Assembly: GCF_921293095.1 (NCBI RefSeq)
Contig: NC_060257.1
Coordinates: 63,806,472 to 63,870,471, forward strand
DNA: 64,000 nucleotides
Direction of reading: 5' to 3'
Source of the DNA: Ischnura elegans
Taxonomy: Eukaryota > Arthropoda > Insecta > Odonata > Coenagrionidae
Shown piece after piece: positions 41,901 to 56,900 of the stretch (position 1 is its first letter; the number at the start of each line of letters is the position of its first letter). The position numbers were made by a program, and so were the translations under genes. The notes beneath the pieces were generated by a model that did no database searches, was not told the origin of the DNA, and saw only the letters and a list, made by a program, of their open reading frames with translations.

Positions 41901-44900
41901 TGGGACAATAAATTGCCCCTTAATTTACTTCTGTAACACCCGTAGGCCCTTGTATACTTGCAAAACGTAGTCGCGTGTTGAGTATTTTGCGAAACAAAGT
42001 TTTGCATTGAGTAATTTGTGAAGGGGACTTGTAGAATCTGACGCTGTTCCCAAAGGTGCAGGAGACATTTTTCTCCATTTTATTTAAGACATTTCGCCAT
42101 GGATAATGGTCAAATTGCCAGTTTCCTATAGATACGTCGCAAGAATGTTTGAGCCTTTCATTCTAAAAATAGTTCATATTTGAATTTATTTTAACTTTTT
42201 ATTAGGTAAGAACTTCGGTGAAGGCATGTATTTCGTATTTTAATAGAGTATTTTGAAATTACATTAGTATTTAGTATCGAAAATACAATTTTTAGAAGTA
42301 ATTTGTATTTTGTATTAATAATAATAATAATAATTTTATTTGTCCAAAAGATCATATATTACAGTGAGCCACAGAATATAGATATAGGACACGTCATGGA
42401 AGTTAAGTGAATCATAAAAATGTAACATACTGAACAGTAGATGTAACATTAAACAATTGAACATTTGAATTGAATATTTGAAATACAGATTTTAAAAGTA
42501 ATTTGTATTTTGTATCTAAAATACATTTGACATGTATTTTGCCCATCTCTGGAGTAGAATAAATCCAATCGAGCTGGCACAATTTTCTCCAATCGAGCTG
42601 GCACAATTTCTCGGAAAAGTTATTACCAATTGAAATATAACACACTGGAAATTCGAAAGAATGCAGTGACCATGCAACCATCGACATCGACCCAAGTCAC
42701 GTATTGGCCTCCACCCAACTTGGCAACTCACCTGATAGTATTCCCATTGTTTCCAAGTCTCGTATTCACCCCAACCCCACTTGCCAACCACAGCTTCTCT
42801 CTGTCATTATTATCTTACTCCTCATTAGTATATAAGCATCTACATCAGAAACGAGCATCATTACACGATTGATAAATATGAGCGTCGCACTATAGAGAGA
42901 ACCCAAATCTCGCCCGGAGTACACCAATCTCCTGGTGGAGAAGCAGCGACTTCCGGACACATACATCGTCTACATCCCTCATCGAAACACAGATTTTGTG
43001 CTTTCGGTGCTCTTTAATTCAGTTTACTTCTGAGTATTCTGGCACCAGAGAAAGACGTTTGAGGTGATTACGGATTTACCGATCCTGGCACATGACGTCA
43101 CAGCATCATCTACCTCAAATATCTTCCACATTTGAATAGATACATTTTTGCTTTAAACGGCATAGCTGTAAGCATTTTATTATCCTTCGAATACAACCAT
43201 CAAATATCCTTATACTCATTCATGGTCCATGGTAAGGGTACAAGGGTATCTTATTTTCAGAGTAAGCGTTTTGTCAGTTATTAAAAAAATGTTCCTCCTG
43301 CAACGTTATACACGAATCATTAACTATTATTTATGAATTCAACCCGTATGTCTCTAAAAGTGAATGCCGAATCTAGCGCATGATGTCACAGCATCATCTA
43401 ACTTAAATACCTTCCACATTTCAATATATAAATGTATGCTTTAAACGGCATGGTTGTTAGCATTTTATTACCTCTCGGATGAAAGAATTAAATTTTCTCA
43501 GACCCTTGCGAGTCCATTGCCAGGGTGCAAAGGTATTTGACGATATGTCGTTTTGACGTCTATTACAGAAAATGTTCATCCTTAAAGCTAATAAGCGAAA
43601 CCATACTTTGTGTTACAATTATGTTCTCTAACATTAATACTATATTCTAATATTCCAAATTACTGTTGAATTTTTATTGTTTTTAAAAATCGAAAGATCA
43701 TCTCCATCCTCCTAATGCAATTTCTAACATAATTCATGGTCATTGATCTGAATAAATAAATAAATAAAAGATATAATACATTTTTTTATTCTATTTGTAA
43801 TGTTTTGTATTAATTTACATGCATAAAACTTTTCATCCCCGTTTAAATTGTTATAACATACTCCCCCTTCAGTCATCATGAACATCCGAGGATAGTCCAT
43901 TTTTTCTCTCTCCCCCATCATAAGTAATTGGGGTCAACAACCCCTCCCTGTATCGGGTACTGATCCTCTCCATCCCATACTTCACCCCCTCCTTCAACTC
44001 ATACTTCTTGAGGAAGGTGAACACCTCCAGTACATCTTGGAATCTTCTCCTTAGTAATCGCTGCCAGAATAAATGGATAGACAAAATATCAGATGCTTGA
44101 TAAATTAGATACATTACCATATATTTCATAACGAAAAATAAAATAAACCCTTTCAAATGAGTAGGAGGAGCTTGCAGTGGTGGTGATGGTATGAGGTGGT
44201 GGTCATGTAAGAGGGTCGTGGCAGTGGGGGGTGATTTCCAACCTTCCAAAACAGAAGGAAGAGAATAAATTAACATCATAATGAACAATGAGATTTAATA
44301 ACTCCGATTCTTTCTTCCATTATCTGTATTATTTTTTGTTAAAGAAGCAGATCTCATTAATTATTTCATTGATTATTATAGGAATACATTATAGTGATCT
44401 TCCTCTTAACCCATAAAATTCCGTATATTTCACTCATAATCAACGTGAAATTGAATCTCAACGTTTACAACACTCGTAAATAACATGTTATTCCACCCAT
44501 TTCCGCGAAACATCACATGGAAACGGTAAAACACATTAATTTTTTTATTTTAGGTATTCTAGTTGACATTTTTTTCTATTTCCTTTTCTTTTCATAGTTC
44601 TGCAACTTTTCCCAATGACGGATTTATGGGGAAGGGGGGTATCACACGGGTCATGACTCCGTAACTATATGACCAGTTGTGCCTTTAGCTGTGGAAATAC
44701 AAGTGTCTTTTATATTGGATGAGGATTATTATTGAAAAATATATAAAATTGGACGAACCATTGCCTCACAATATTGCTTCAAACTCGGGTGCTTATACTT
44801 ATGACGTGGAAAGTCAATGAAGATGACAAATATGCATCGAAAAGTTGGAAAAATGTTAAAAACCTATTGACCAAACCTCAAAATAAACCAAAAGCATTAC

Positions 44901-53900: not shown

Positions 53901-56900
53901 CACCCCCCACTGCCACGACCCTCTTACATGACCACCACCTCATACCATCACCACCACTGCAAGCTCCTCCTACTCATTTGAAAGGGTTTATTTTATTTTT
54001 CGTTATGAAATATATGGTAATGTATCTAATTTATCAAGCATCTGATATTTTGTCTATCCATTTATTCTGGCAGCGATTACTAAGGAGAAGATTCCAAGAT
54101 GTACTGGAGGTGTTCACCTTCCTCAAGAAGTATGAGTTGAAGGAGGGGGTGAAGTATGGGATGGAGAGGATCAGTACCCGATACAGGGAGGGGTTGTTGA
54201 CCCCAATTACTTATGATGGGGGAGAGAGAAAAAATGGACTATCCTCGGATGTTCATGATGACTGAAGGGGGAGTATGTTATAACAATTTAAACGGGGATG
54301 AAAAGTTTTATGCATGTAAATTAATACAAAACATTACAAATAGAATAAAAAAATGTATTATATCTTTTATTTATTTATTTATTCAGATCAATGACCATGA
54401 ATTATGTTAGAAATTGCATTAGGAGGATGGAGATGATCTTTCGATTTTTAAAAACAATAAAAATTCAACAGTAATTTGGAATATTAGAATATAGTATTAA
54501 TGTTAGAGAACATAATTGTAACACAAAGTATGGTTTCGCTTATTAGCTTTAAGGATGAACATTTTCTGTAATAGACGTCAAAACGACATATCGTCAAATA
54601 CCTTTGCACCCTGGCAATGGACTCGCAAGGGTCTGAGAAAATTTAATTCTTTCATCCGAGAGGTAATAAAATGCTAACAACCATGCCGTTTAAAGCATAC
54701 ATTTATATATTGAAATGTGGAAGGTATTTAAGTTAGATGATGCTGTGACATCATGCGCTAGATTCGGCATTCACTTTTAGAGACATACGGGTTGAATTCA
54801 TAAATAATAGTTAATGATTCGTGTATAACGTTGCAGGAGGAACATTTTTTTAATAACTGACAAAACGCTTACTCTGAAAATAAGATACCCTTGTACCCTT
54901 ACCATGGACCATGAATGAGTATAAGGATATTTGATGGTTGTATTCGAAGGATAATAAAATGCTTACAGCTATGCCGTTTAAAGCAAAAATGTATCTATTC
55001 AAATGTGGAAGATATTTGAGGTAGATGATGCTGTGACGTCATGTGCCAGGATCGGTAAATCCGTAATCACCTCAAACGTCTTTCTCTGGTGCCAGAATAC
55101 TCAGAAGTAAACTGAATTAAAGAGCACCGAAAGCACAAAATCTGTGTTTCGATGAGGGATGTAGACGATGTATGTGTCCGGAAGTCGCTGCTTCTCCACC
55201 AGGAGATTGGTGTACTCCGGGCGAGATTTGGGTTCTCTCTATAGTGCGACGCTCATATTTATCAATCGTGTAATGATGCTCGTTTCTGATGTAGATGCTT
55301 ATATACTAATGAGGAGTAAGATAATAATGACAGAGAGAAGCTGTGGTTGGCAAGTGGGGTTGGGGTGAATACGAGACTTGGAAACAATGGGAATACTATC
55401 AGGTGAGTTGCCAAGTTGGGTGGAGGCCAATACGTGACTTGGGTCGATGTCGATGGTTGCATGGTCACTGCATTCTTTCGAATTTCCAGTGTGTTATATT
55501 TCAATTGGTAATAACTTTTCCGAGAAATTGTGCCAGCTCGATTGGAGAAAATTGTGCCAGCTCGATTGGATTTATTCTACTCTCTGGGTATAGATACATA
55601 AAAGGAACCACCACTAATTATATATTCACATTTGGCACTTTTTCCCACATGGCCAAAATTTTCTTGTGTATTCAAAAGTAAATCCAAAGGACACAATATT
55701 AATAATGATTAATTATATATTTTGAAGACAGAAAGTAAAAGAACAGACAAAATTACACAATAAACATTATTTTGATGGAATGGGCAGCAGTATTGCGGAG
55801 AAAGCATTGCACACAAAGAACAATCATAACTGTAGTAATATGAAAAAAGAAATGAATCCCTTATCCTTGTTTTTCAATTTTCCTTGTATTAGGAAAGCCT
55901 ACACATGCATGATTTTCATTGAAGATTTAAAAAATGCTCTGGTATTAATAAAACTTGAACCACAATCTTCTACCGATCACAAATACATGACTCACCTGCT
56001 TGTAATACTCGGGAGGGGCTGTAGGGCTGTTTGTTTCTTTGAGATAACTATCCCAATCAAACTGTGTGTAGGTTTCATATTGAAATGATGCAGACGCTGC
56101 ACCTATGAAAAAAGAGAGAAAAATAGGAGCTTTAGAAATCATAAAATATACCAAGTTACTAATTATTCATATGAAAGCTATTAGAGCATCCATCCTTGGT
56201 ATTTTGGTAATTTAACACGTGGAAGGCGAGTGGTAAGCAATAAAAATTAGATTAAATGAATATGATTACACTTAAGCATATTAAAATGGCCTTAGAAACA
56301 AGCGAACAGTACTGAGTGTACGTGCACAACCATCATGGTTACCTTAATGCTCAATGCTGACAATCATGGATTAGGAAGATTATGCAAGTTCAAAAAATTC
56401 CACTTTTAGGAATGGCATTTCTAGTGTCATGTCAGCAATTTTCAATCAACTGTTTAATCAATGTAGCACTGTAATTTCATTCAGCAAAAATAAATAAGAG
56501 GTTTAGGAACAATGCTTCTTGGATTACAACATTTATGAGGCACTCTATCATTTTAAACGGAAAACGGTGACACTTGCATATCTAATAATAAACATTTTCG
56601 ACCACAGAGCAAGAGACATCCATGGTCGTAATAAGCTGAACCTTTATATGTTCTGAATGAGGCCAAGTAATATAAAAACACGCTAATTTACCGCAATCTG
56701 ACCCCTCAATTATTTATACATACCACGTTTCTGTTCCGGTGGCTGATTAACCGCCTCTTTTTTCTGGTACTTGTTGAGACAGAAATTAGTGCAGAAGTCT
56801 TTAATCTGACCCTGCTGCTCCAATCGAACAGGTGAGCCCCTTATAACATTATCACAAAGTATGCAAGCACCCTATAAAAAAATTTGAAGACGTGAGTCGT

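Follow-up and report, generated by a model that had tools for sequence, protein, structure and literature searches.

Polintons (Mavericks) are held to be protein-primed, virus-like mobile elements, and non-autonomous Polintons are a known kind. To our knowledge, the Polinton replication cycle has been deduced rather than watched. Adenoviruses also have a protein-primed linear genome, and their symmetric recombinant or defective genomes are palindromes in which a duplicated end encloses other DNA. In sex-chromosome palindromes, gene conversion maintains the identity of the arms. One published account gives Mavericks 6-bp target duplications, an AG...CT or (AGT)n end motif, and terminal inverted repeats (TIRs) of 46–1,447 bp in intact vertebrate copies (PMC8097293). 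The Tetris foldback element of Drosophila virilis is non-coding in its middle and has long inverted arms that contain tandem repeats; its duplications are 8–10 bp, its authors assign it to Mutator, and no transposase-bearing copy was found there (PMC4079207). Here we describe E1, a 13-kb palindrome of the damselfly Ischnura elegans (genome of 1,722,721,009 bases), located within C12:63806472-63870471, the 64,000-bp stretch analysed as a whole and hereafter called the window. E1 resembles Polintons in its 6-bp duplications, its (AGT)n-type ends and a terminal sequence common to gene-bearing copies in the same genome. It differs in that no genes were found in it, in that its inverted repeats reach ~6.2 kb, beyond the vertebrate range above, and in that nearly all of it is palindrome.

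Comparison of positions 42552–48754 with the reverse complement of 49380–55582 gave three mismatches (at 44413, 47257 and 48451) in 6203 positions and no indels, with the coordinates of the arms mirroring to a sum of 98,134 around an asymmetric spacer, or loop, of 625 bp. A 6.2-kb mirror of this kind by chance is excluded. The near-perfect palindrome described in an earlier sequence-only reading was confirmed, and the bounds it gave (42552–55582) hold for the mirror. The element itself is one base shorter on each side (42553–55581); it begins AGTAG and finishes CTACT, and the outermost mirrored pair, 42552/55582, belongs to the target duplication outside it. E1 is a mobile element, flanked on either side by the sequence CTCTGG as a perfect 6-bp target duplication. 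Its features were as follows.

42547–42552, unstranded: left target-site duplication CTCTGG, same letters as 55582–55587
42553–48754, plus strand: left arm, 6202 bp, AGTAG start, from the comparison of the arms
42553–43069, plus strand: T1 terminal block, Polinton-derived, matching the 18.65-kb Polinton at C19:114744122
42564–42609, plus strand: terminal tandem repeat, 24-bp unit, 1.9 copies, also at the ends of the 18.65-kb gene-bearing element
43079–43503, plus strand: start of the shared non-coding cargo, with repeats at 288-bp spacing, two copies in E1 and more in relatives
45414–46057, plus strand: inserted 0.65-kb repeat of the left arm, with a relative at window 7684–8341
48755–49379, unstranded: asymmetric loop, 625 bp, parts of which were found within the arms of relatives
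49380–55581, minus strand: right arm, 6202 bp, mirror of the left with 3 mismatches
52077–52720, minus strand: inserted 0.65-kb repeat, mirrored copy in the right arm
55525–55570, minus strand: mirrored terminal tandem repeat
55582–55587, unstranded: right target-site duplication CTCTGG, same letters as 42547–42552

The cargo of E1, ~5.7 kb per arm, is non-coding. A six-frame Pfam scan of the left arm and loop returned no match up to an E value of 1, and Rfam returned nothing for E1 at gathering scores. The longest stop-to-stop frame of the arm was 141 codons (43869–44294 on the minus strand, plus its mirror) and had no Pfam match. These negative scans rule out E1 as a coding element. Capsid genes found no match in the same general scan, in which capsid models were not specifically sought. 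Autonomous Polintons are recognised by PolB together with an integrase; the scan found neither gene in E1, which is therefore not classed as a Polinton proper.

The genome was searched with the outer and the inner part of the E1 arm, and 40 of 4,597 and 40 of 6,599 first-look candidates, respectively, were scored, so that all counts are lower bounds. Ten palindromes (E1–E4, B1–B4, C1 and C2) were fetched in stretches and inspected at both ends, and the searches gave many facing hit pairs, more than these ten. Within this genome such palindromes are thus not rare, contrary to the sequence-only reading. An AGTAG...CTACT structure with a perfect 6-bp duplication was present in 13 of 13 tabulated elements (the ten palindromes, one 18.65-kb Polinton and two short-TIR elements), and two further elements had such ends and duplications, one of 16.5 kb (TATTCC) and one of 10.25 kb with hybrid ends (GGAGTG). 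Stretches L023, L025 and L026 were left out of this count, as one recognisable end was missing from the sequence fetched. AGTAGT ends were seen in B1, B2 and C1; E1 reads AGTAGA, so (AGT)2 covers its first five bases only.

Arm lengths ranged from ~5.6 kb (B3) to 7.2 kb (B2), and the two arms were 99.8–100% identical across the ten palindromes; E4 (99.5%) and B1 (99.3%) scored lower because their alignments cross the loop, which adds gaps. The loop measured 0 bp in B2, where an exact mirror run extends 1,420 bp outward from the centre, ~37 bp in B1 (read off the alignment), 43 bp in E4, 89 bp in C1 and C2, 97 bp in E2, 194 bp in E3, 251 bp in B4, 625 bp in E1 and ~1,400 bp in B3. Divergence was 0.35–2.8% among E1–E4 and ~8–15% for the other families. 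Two relatives, L024 (6.0 kb, with its own target duplication CGCTTA) and L047 (4.1 kb), are probably ordinary non-autonomous Polintons. Like the palindromes, they have the same ends and 6-bp duplications and are shorter than gene-bearing copies. However, these two elements have short TIRs (130 and 312 bp, respectively) and a one-armed body, whereas each palindrome has a pair of full arms evolving in concert.

Three single loci stood out among the relatives. Stretches L029 and L030 (C19:42474341-42488663) hold a 14.3-kb palindrome with a spacerless centre. L023 (C19:8265000-8274500) is of T1 type, with arms 99.97% alike; it has AGTAG at one end, and its opposite end is truncated at arm position 187, possibly through integrase-free insertion or later loss. 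At C14:8946822-8964007, nested T3 ends stand at mirrored sites (8946822/8949215 and 8961614/8964007), which looks like the duplication of an end in each arm.

The cargo of E1, which starts at about arm position 527, was ~85–92% similar to that of the B and C palindromes, and the outer blocks differed. Four end types were distinguished.

T1 ends: E1–E4
T2 ends: B1, B2 and C1, ~1.3 kb before the cargo repeats
T3 ends: B3 and B4, ~340 bp
T4 ends: C2, with the cargo's own repeat after AGTAGG

By sequence comparison, a single non-coding cargo thus appears with ends from three families of Polintons. The outermost 200 bp of E1 (T1) also bounded five elements of 18.65–18.69 kb (31 of 31 candidates scored), and all five carried a Polinton integrase, separated from the two ends by 6.4 and 11.0 kb (99 of 2,520 integrase candidates scored). 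The 18.65-kb Polinton at C19:114744122, read in separate pieces, had 183-bp TIRs and the target duplication AATCAA. It encoded PolB (PF03175, 4e-13), an integrase with a chromodomain, a dUTPase and an Endonuclease_7 match, and its packaging-ATPase-like hits were weak and below cut-off. The outermost 180 bp of E1 matched both of its TIRs (92% for the right one). Beyond them, the arm tracked the left end of the Polinton at arm positions 2–232 (window 42553–42783, 89%) and 345–518 (window 42896–43069, 79–82%), and the right end added only a 43-bp match (81%). A translated comparison gave three short, weak matches (E 0.002–0.009).

T3 and T2 ends were linked to integrases as well. The first 60 bp of T3 (92–94%; positions 10–60 in one case) bounded four integrase-bearing elements of 17.3–17.4 kb, and none of the 99 scored integrases fell within the other facing T3 pairs. 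For T2, an integrase lay 10.3–13.1 kb inward of 8 of 40 scored end hits (152 candidates), and these integrase-linked ends matched T2 over ~250 bp at 94–96%. The chance of an integrase within 20 kb of a random end is ~0.1%, given the 99 scored integrases. This damselfly seems to have many Polintons of recent origin: of the 99 scored integrase matches, 95 were free of internal stops, and the 83 candidates scored out of 364 for PF03175 yielded 151 matches. The sequence-only reading had found no element class that E1 matched; this did not hold, as its ends and duplications are of Polinton type and the ends are common to gene-bearing Polintons. Taken together, the copies show a family that moves as a palindrome, with ends, duplications and terminal sequence like those of gene-bearing Polintons in the same genome.

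The arms of these palindromes change together. After removal of the last 150 columns and of all columns with gaps, the outer 4.03 kb of E1–E4 had 139 variable sites, of which 136 agreed between both arms of every element and three were arm-specific; divergence was 0.35–2.76% between elements and 0–0.05% between arms. E3 and E4 differed there only at mirrored sites, with 14 substitutions per arm. The inserted 0.65-kb repeat was present in both arms of E1–E4, and its first 27 bases were absent from both arms of E4. It also occurred in the one-armed L024 and in L026, and no match to it was found in the B and C stretches L027–L036 or in the T1 element L025; the L023 stretch does not span the site. 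The 84% relative of this insertion at window 7684–8341, seemingly bounded by CACTTTG...CAAAGTG beside TTAA when viewed by eye, resembles a small TTAA-type transposon.

C1 and C2 were 99.53% identical over 9,109 aligned bp and shared an asymmetric 89-bp loop at 88 of 89 positions. Despite this common centre, C1 has T2 at both ends and C2 has T4 at both. In the 2.4 kb beside the centre (first 100 columns dropped), seven of the eight substitutions between them were mirrored, as were four of the five gap columns. The centre itself has shifted in E2: the whole E3 centre (arm end, 194-bp loop, arm start) lies within both E2 arms at 97%, and the new loop of E2, 97 bp long, is situated beyond it. In arm order, the C and B4 outgroups agree with E3. 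The 43-bp loop of E4 can be explained by a deletion in an older palindrome; the arrangement of E2 cannot. Mirrored substitutions, a mirrored insertion, mirrored end changes and a displaced centre therefore point to copying from arm to arm after the palindrome had formed. Centre sequences common to the B, C and E families likewise suggest that palindromes descend from palindromes. The arms are recent in their identity, as the sequence-only reading had it in calling the palindrome young; this dates the last copying between arms and not the lineage, which is common to families ~8–15% apart.

We consider it probable that the E1 family is a non-autonomous element that uses Polinton machinery and has its arms rewritten by fold-back in protein-primed replication. 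Shared ends and 6-bp duplications suggest that Polinton proteins move it. The proteins of a helper Polinton would replicate the element outside the chromosome, protein-primed from its ends, and the Polinton integrase would insert the product. A displaced or incomplete single strand would fold back and be completed with its own first arm as template, and this step would rewrite the second arm, carrying a new mutation, an insertion or a replaced end to the mirror position and occasionally moving the centre. In its behaviour the element would thereby resemble the defective or satellite genomes of viruses with protein-primed replication. The adenovirus defective genomes mentioned above, on which a literature search listed no paper, are virion genomes in cell culture, whereas the palindromes here are chromosomal insertions in an insect. 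More tentatively, at somewhat less than even confidence, we propose a long-lived, gene-less palindromic satellite lineage on at least three Polinton families of one insect, which would swap ends to suit its helper and replicate extrachromosomally via hairpins that overwrite one arm per round.

Fold-back during replication is the most likely route of the re-copying, as this one process would yield the mirrored substitutions and insertion as well as the replaced ends and the shifted centre. Alternatively, the same Polinton derivative could have had its arms homogenised by chromosomal gene conversion after insertion, with replication uninvolved. The arms are long and near each other, which suits conversion, but conversion does not readily create a new centre with the old loop in both arms, as in E2, nor does it readily replace both outermost ends, where the flanks outside lack homology to bound a tract. 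The 312-bp TIRs of L047, diverged by 2.2%, indicate that, for short repeats at least, conversion is not the rule. Conversion thus covers the substitutions and the insertion and hardly the end replacement or the centre shift, and we judge it unlikely. The E2 centre could also come from unequal joining of two molecules.

Several points weigh against the fold-back interpretation. Mirrored substitutions and a mirrored insertion are also what gene conversion would give. Protein priming is suggested by the helper's PolB, and the extrachromosomal form, the hairpin and the replication are postulated. PolB was located in one T1 element, and the T2 and T3 elements contributed integrase only; T3 is shared with gene-bearing elements over its first 60 bp only. 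The remaining 5.7 kb of the E1 arm and the loop had no nucleotide match to the 18.65-kb Polinton. Past AGTAGG, T4 consists mostly of the repeat of the cargo itself and does not count as a fourth Polinton end. The 10.25-kb hybrid (C11:102394748), whose left end is T4 and whose right end is of T2 type except for its outer 40 bp, indicates that unlike ends can also insert. The 16.5-kb T2-ended element on contig C1 had no integrase hit, and a 1.5-kb interior piece of it (L052) had no Pfam match and no frame above 96 codons; it may be non-autonomous too. Finally, the uniformly high arm identity may partly be survivorship, with old palindromes losing an arm.

A further possibility is that each palindrome arose de novo in a single event just before insertion, its source being a one-armed element like L024, with no continuing copying between arms. 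The near-identity of the arms in every copy, the existence of L024 with its own duplication, and the differing centres would all fit. We nevertheless hold it quite improbable, given that C1 and C2 share loop and centre yet have different symmetrical ends, that E3 and E4 have common arms with outer differences at mirrored sites only, and that the three families share centre sequences. A foldback transposon of the Mutator or P superfamily with coincidental 6-bp duplications is very improbable: the arms, internal repeats and non-coding middle recall what is described of Tetris, but the duplication length, 6 bp in all tabulated elements against the 8–10 bp given for Tetris (PMC4079207), rules out this type, and the ends are those of integrase-bearing Polintons. 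An inverted duplication of the chromosome after insertion was ruled out, as the target duplications flank both arms externally. A sequencing or assembly artefact (missed adapter or chimeric palindromic read), of which the sequence-only reading had warned as to palindromic reads and which could also produce the zero-length loop of B2, is very improbable: all ten palindromes have perfect 6-bp duplications between flanks that are unlike each other, loops are asymmetric, mirrored differences are specific to single copies, similar insertions occur at other sites, and the assembly was built from PacBio HiFi reads with hifiasm at 26-fold long-read coverage and one 10X polishing round (PMC9975421).

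The gene that hosts E1 is of the Scm type, a Polycomb-group gene. The following exons lie on its minus strand: zf-FCS at ~57.0–57.1 kb, MBT at ~39.5 and 33.3 kb, and SLED at ~27 kb; a SAM-like exon near 22.7–23.2 kb was spotted by eye, and Pfam did not report SAM there. The exons on either side of the insertion were the following.

56998–57111, minus strand: zf-FCS exon, 5' of the insertion
39439–39642, minus strand: MBT-repeat exon, 3' of the insertion

Their order on the minus strand therefore places E1 in an intron that separates the FCS finger from the MBT repeats, in agreement with the earlier placement in an intron of a Polycomb gene. Elsewhere in the window, a direct repeat of ~1.6 kb (16249–17874 and 31235–32831) is 96% identical between two copies 15 kb apart on one strand, each with an internal 80% repeat; these are probably copies of another mobile element. 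A 183-bp unit is repeated three times in tandem at 34442–34989, in the Scm locus, with 95% matches, and a run of 28 G lies at 61359–61386.

No report of a palindromic Polinton was found in the open-access literature, as judged from titles and the starts of abstracts, and the palindromic, concertedly evolving, end-swapping form appears new within the known non-autonomous Polintons. If our reading is true, the arms are a genomic record of Polinton replication: mobile palindromes overwritten in concert would be a readable trace of the cycle, and they predict linear hairpin or palindromic molecules. The palindromes also suggest that Polintons are cheated on in the manner of satellites and that ends pass from one Polinton family to another. 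The element family is also a source of very long, near-perfect euchromatic palindromes, one of them spacerless, which are expected to be fragile sites.

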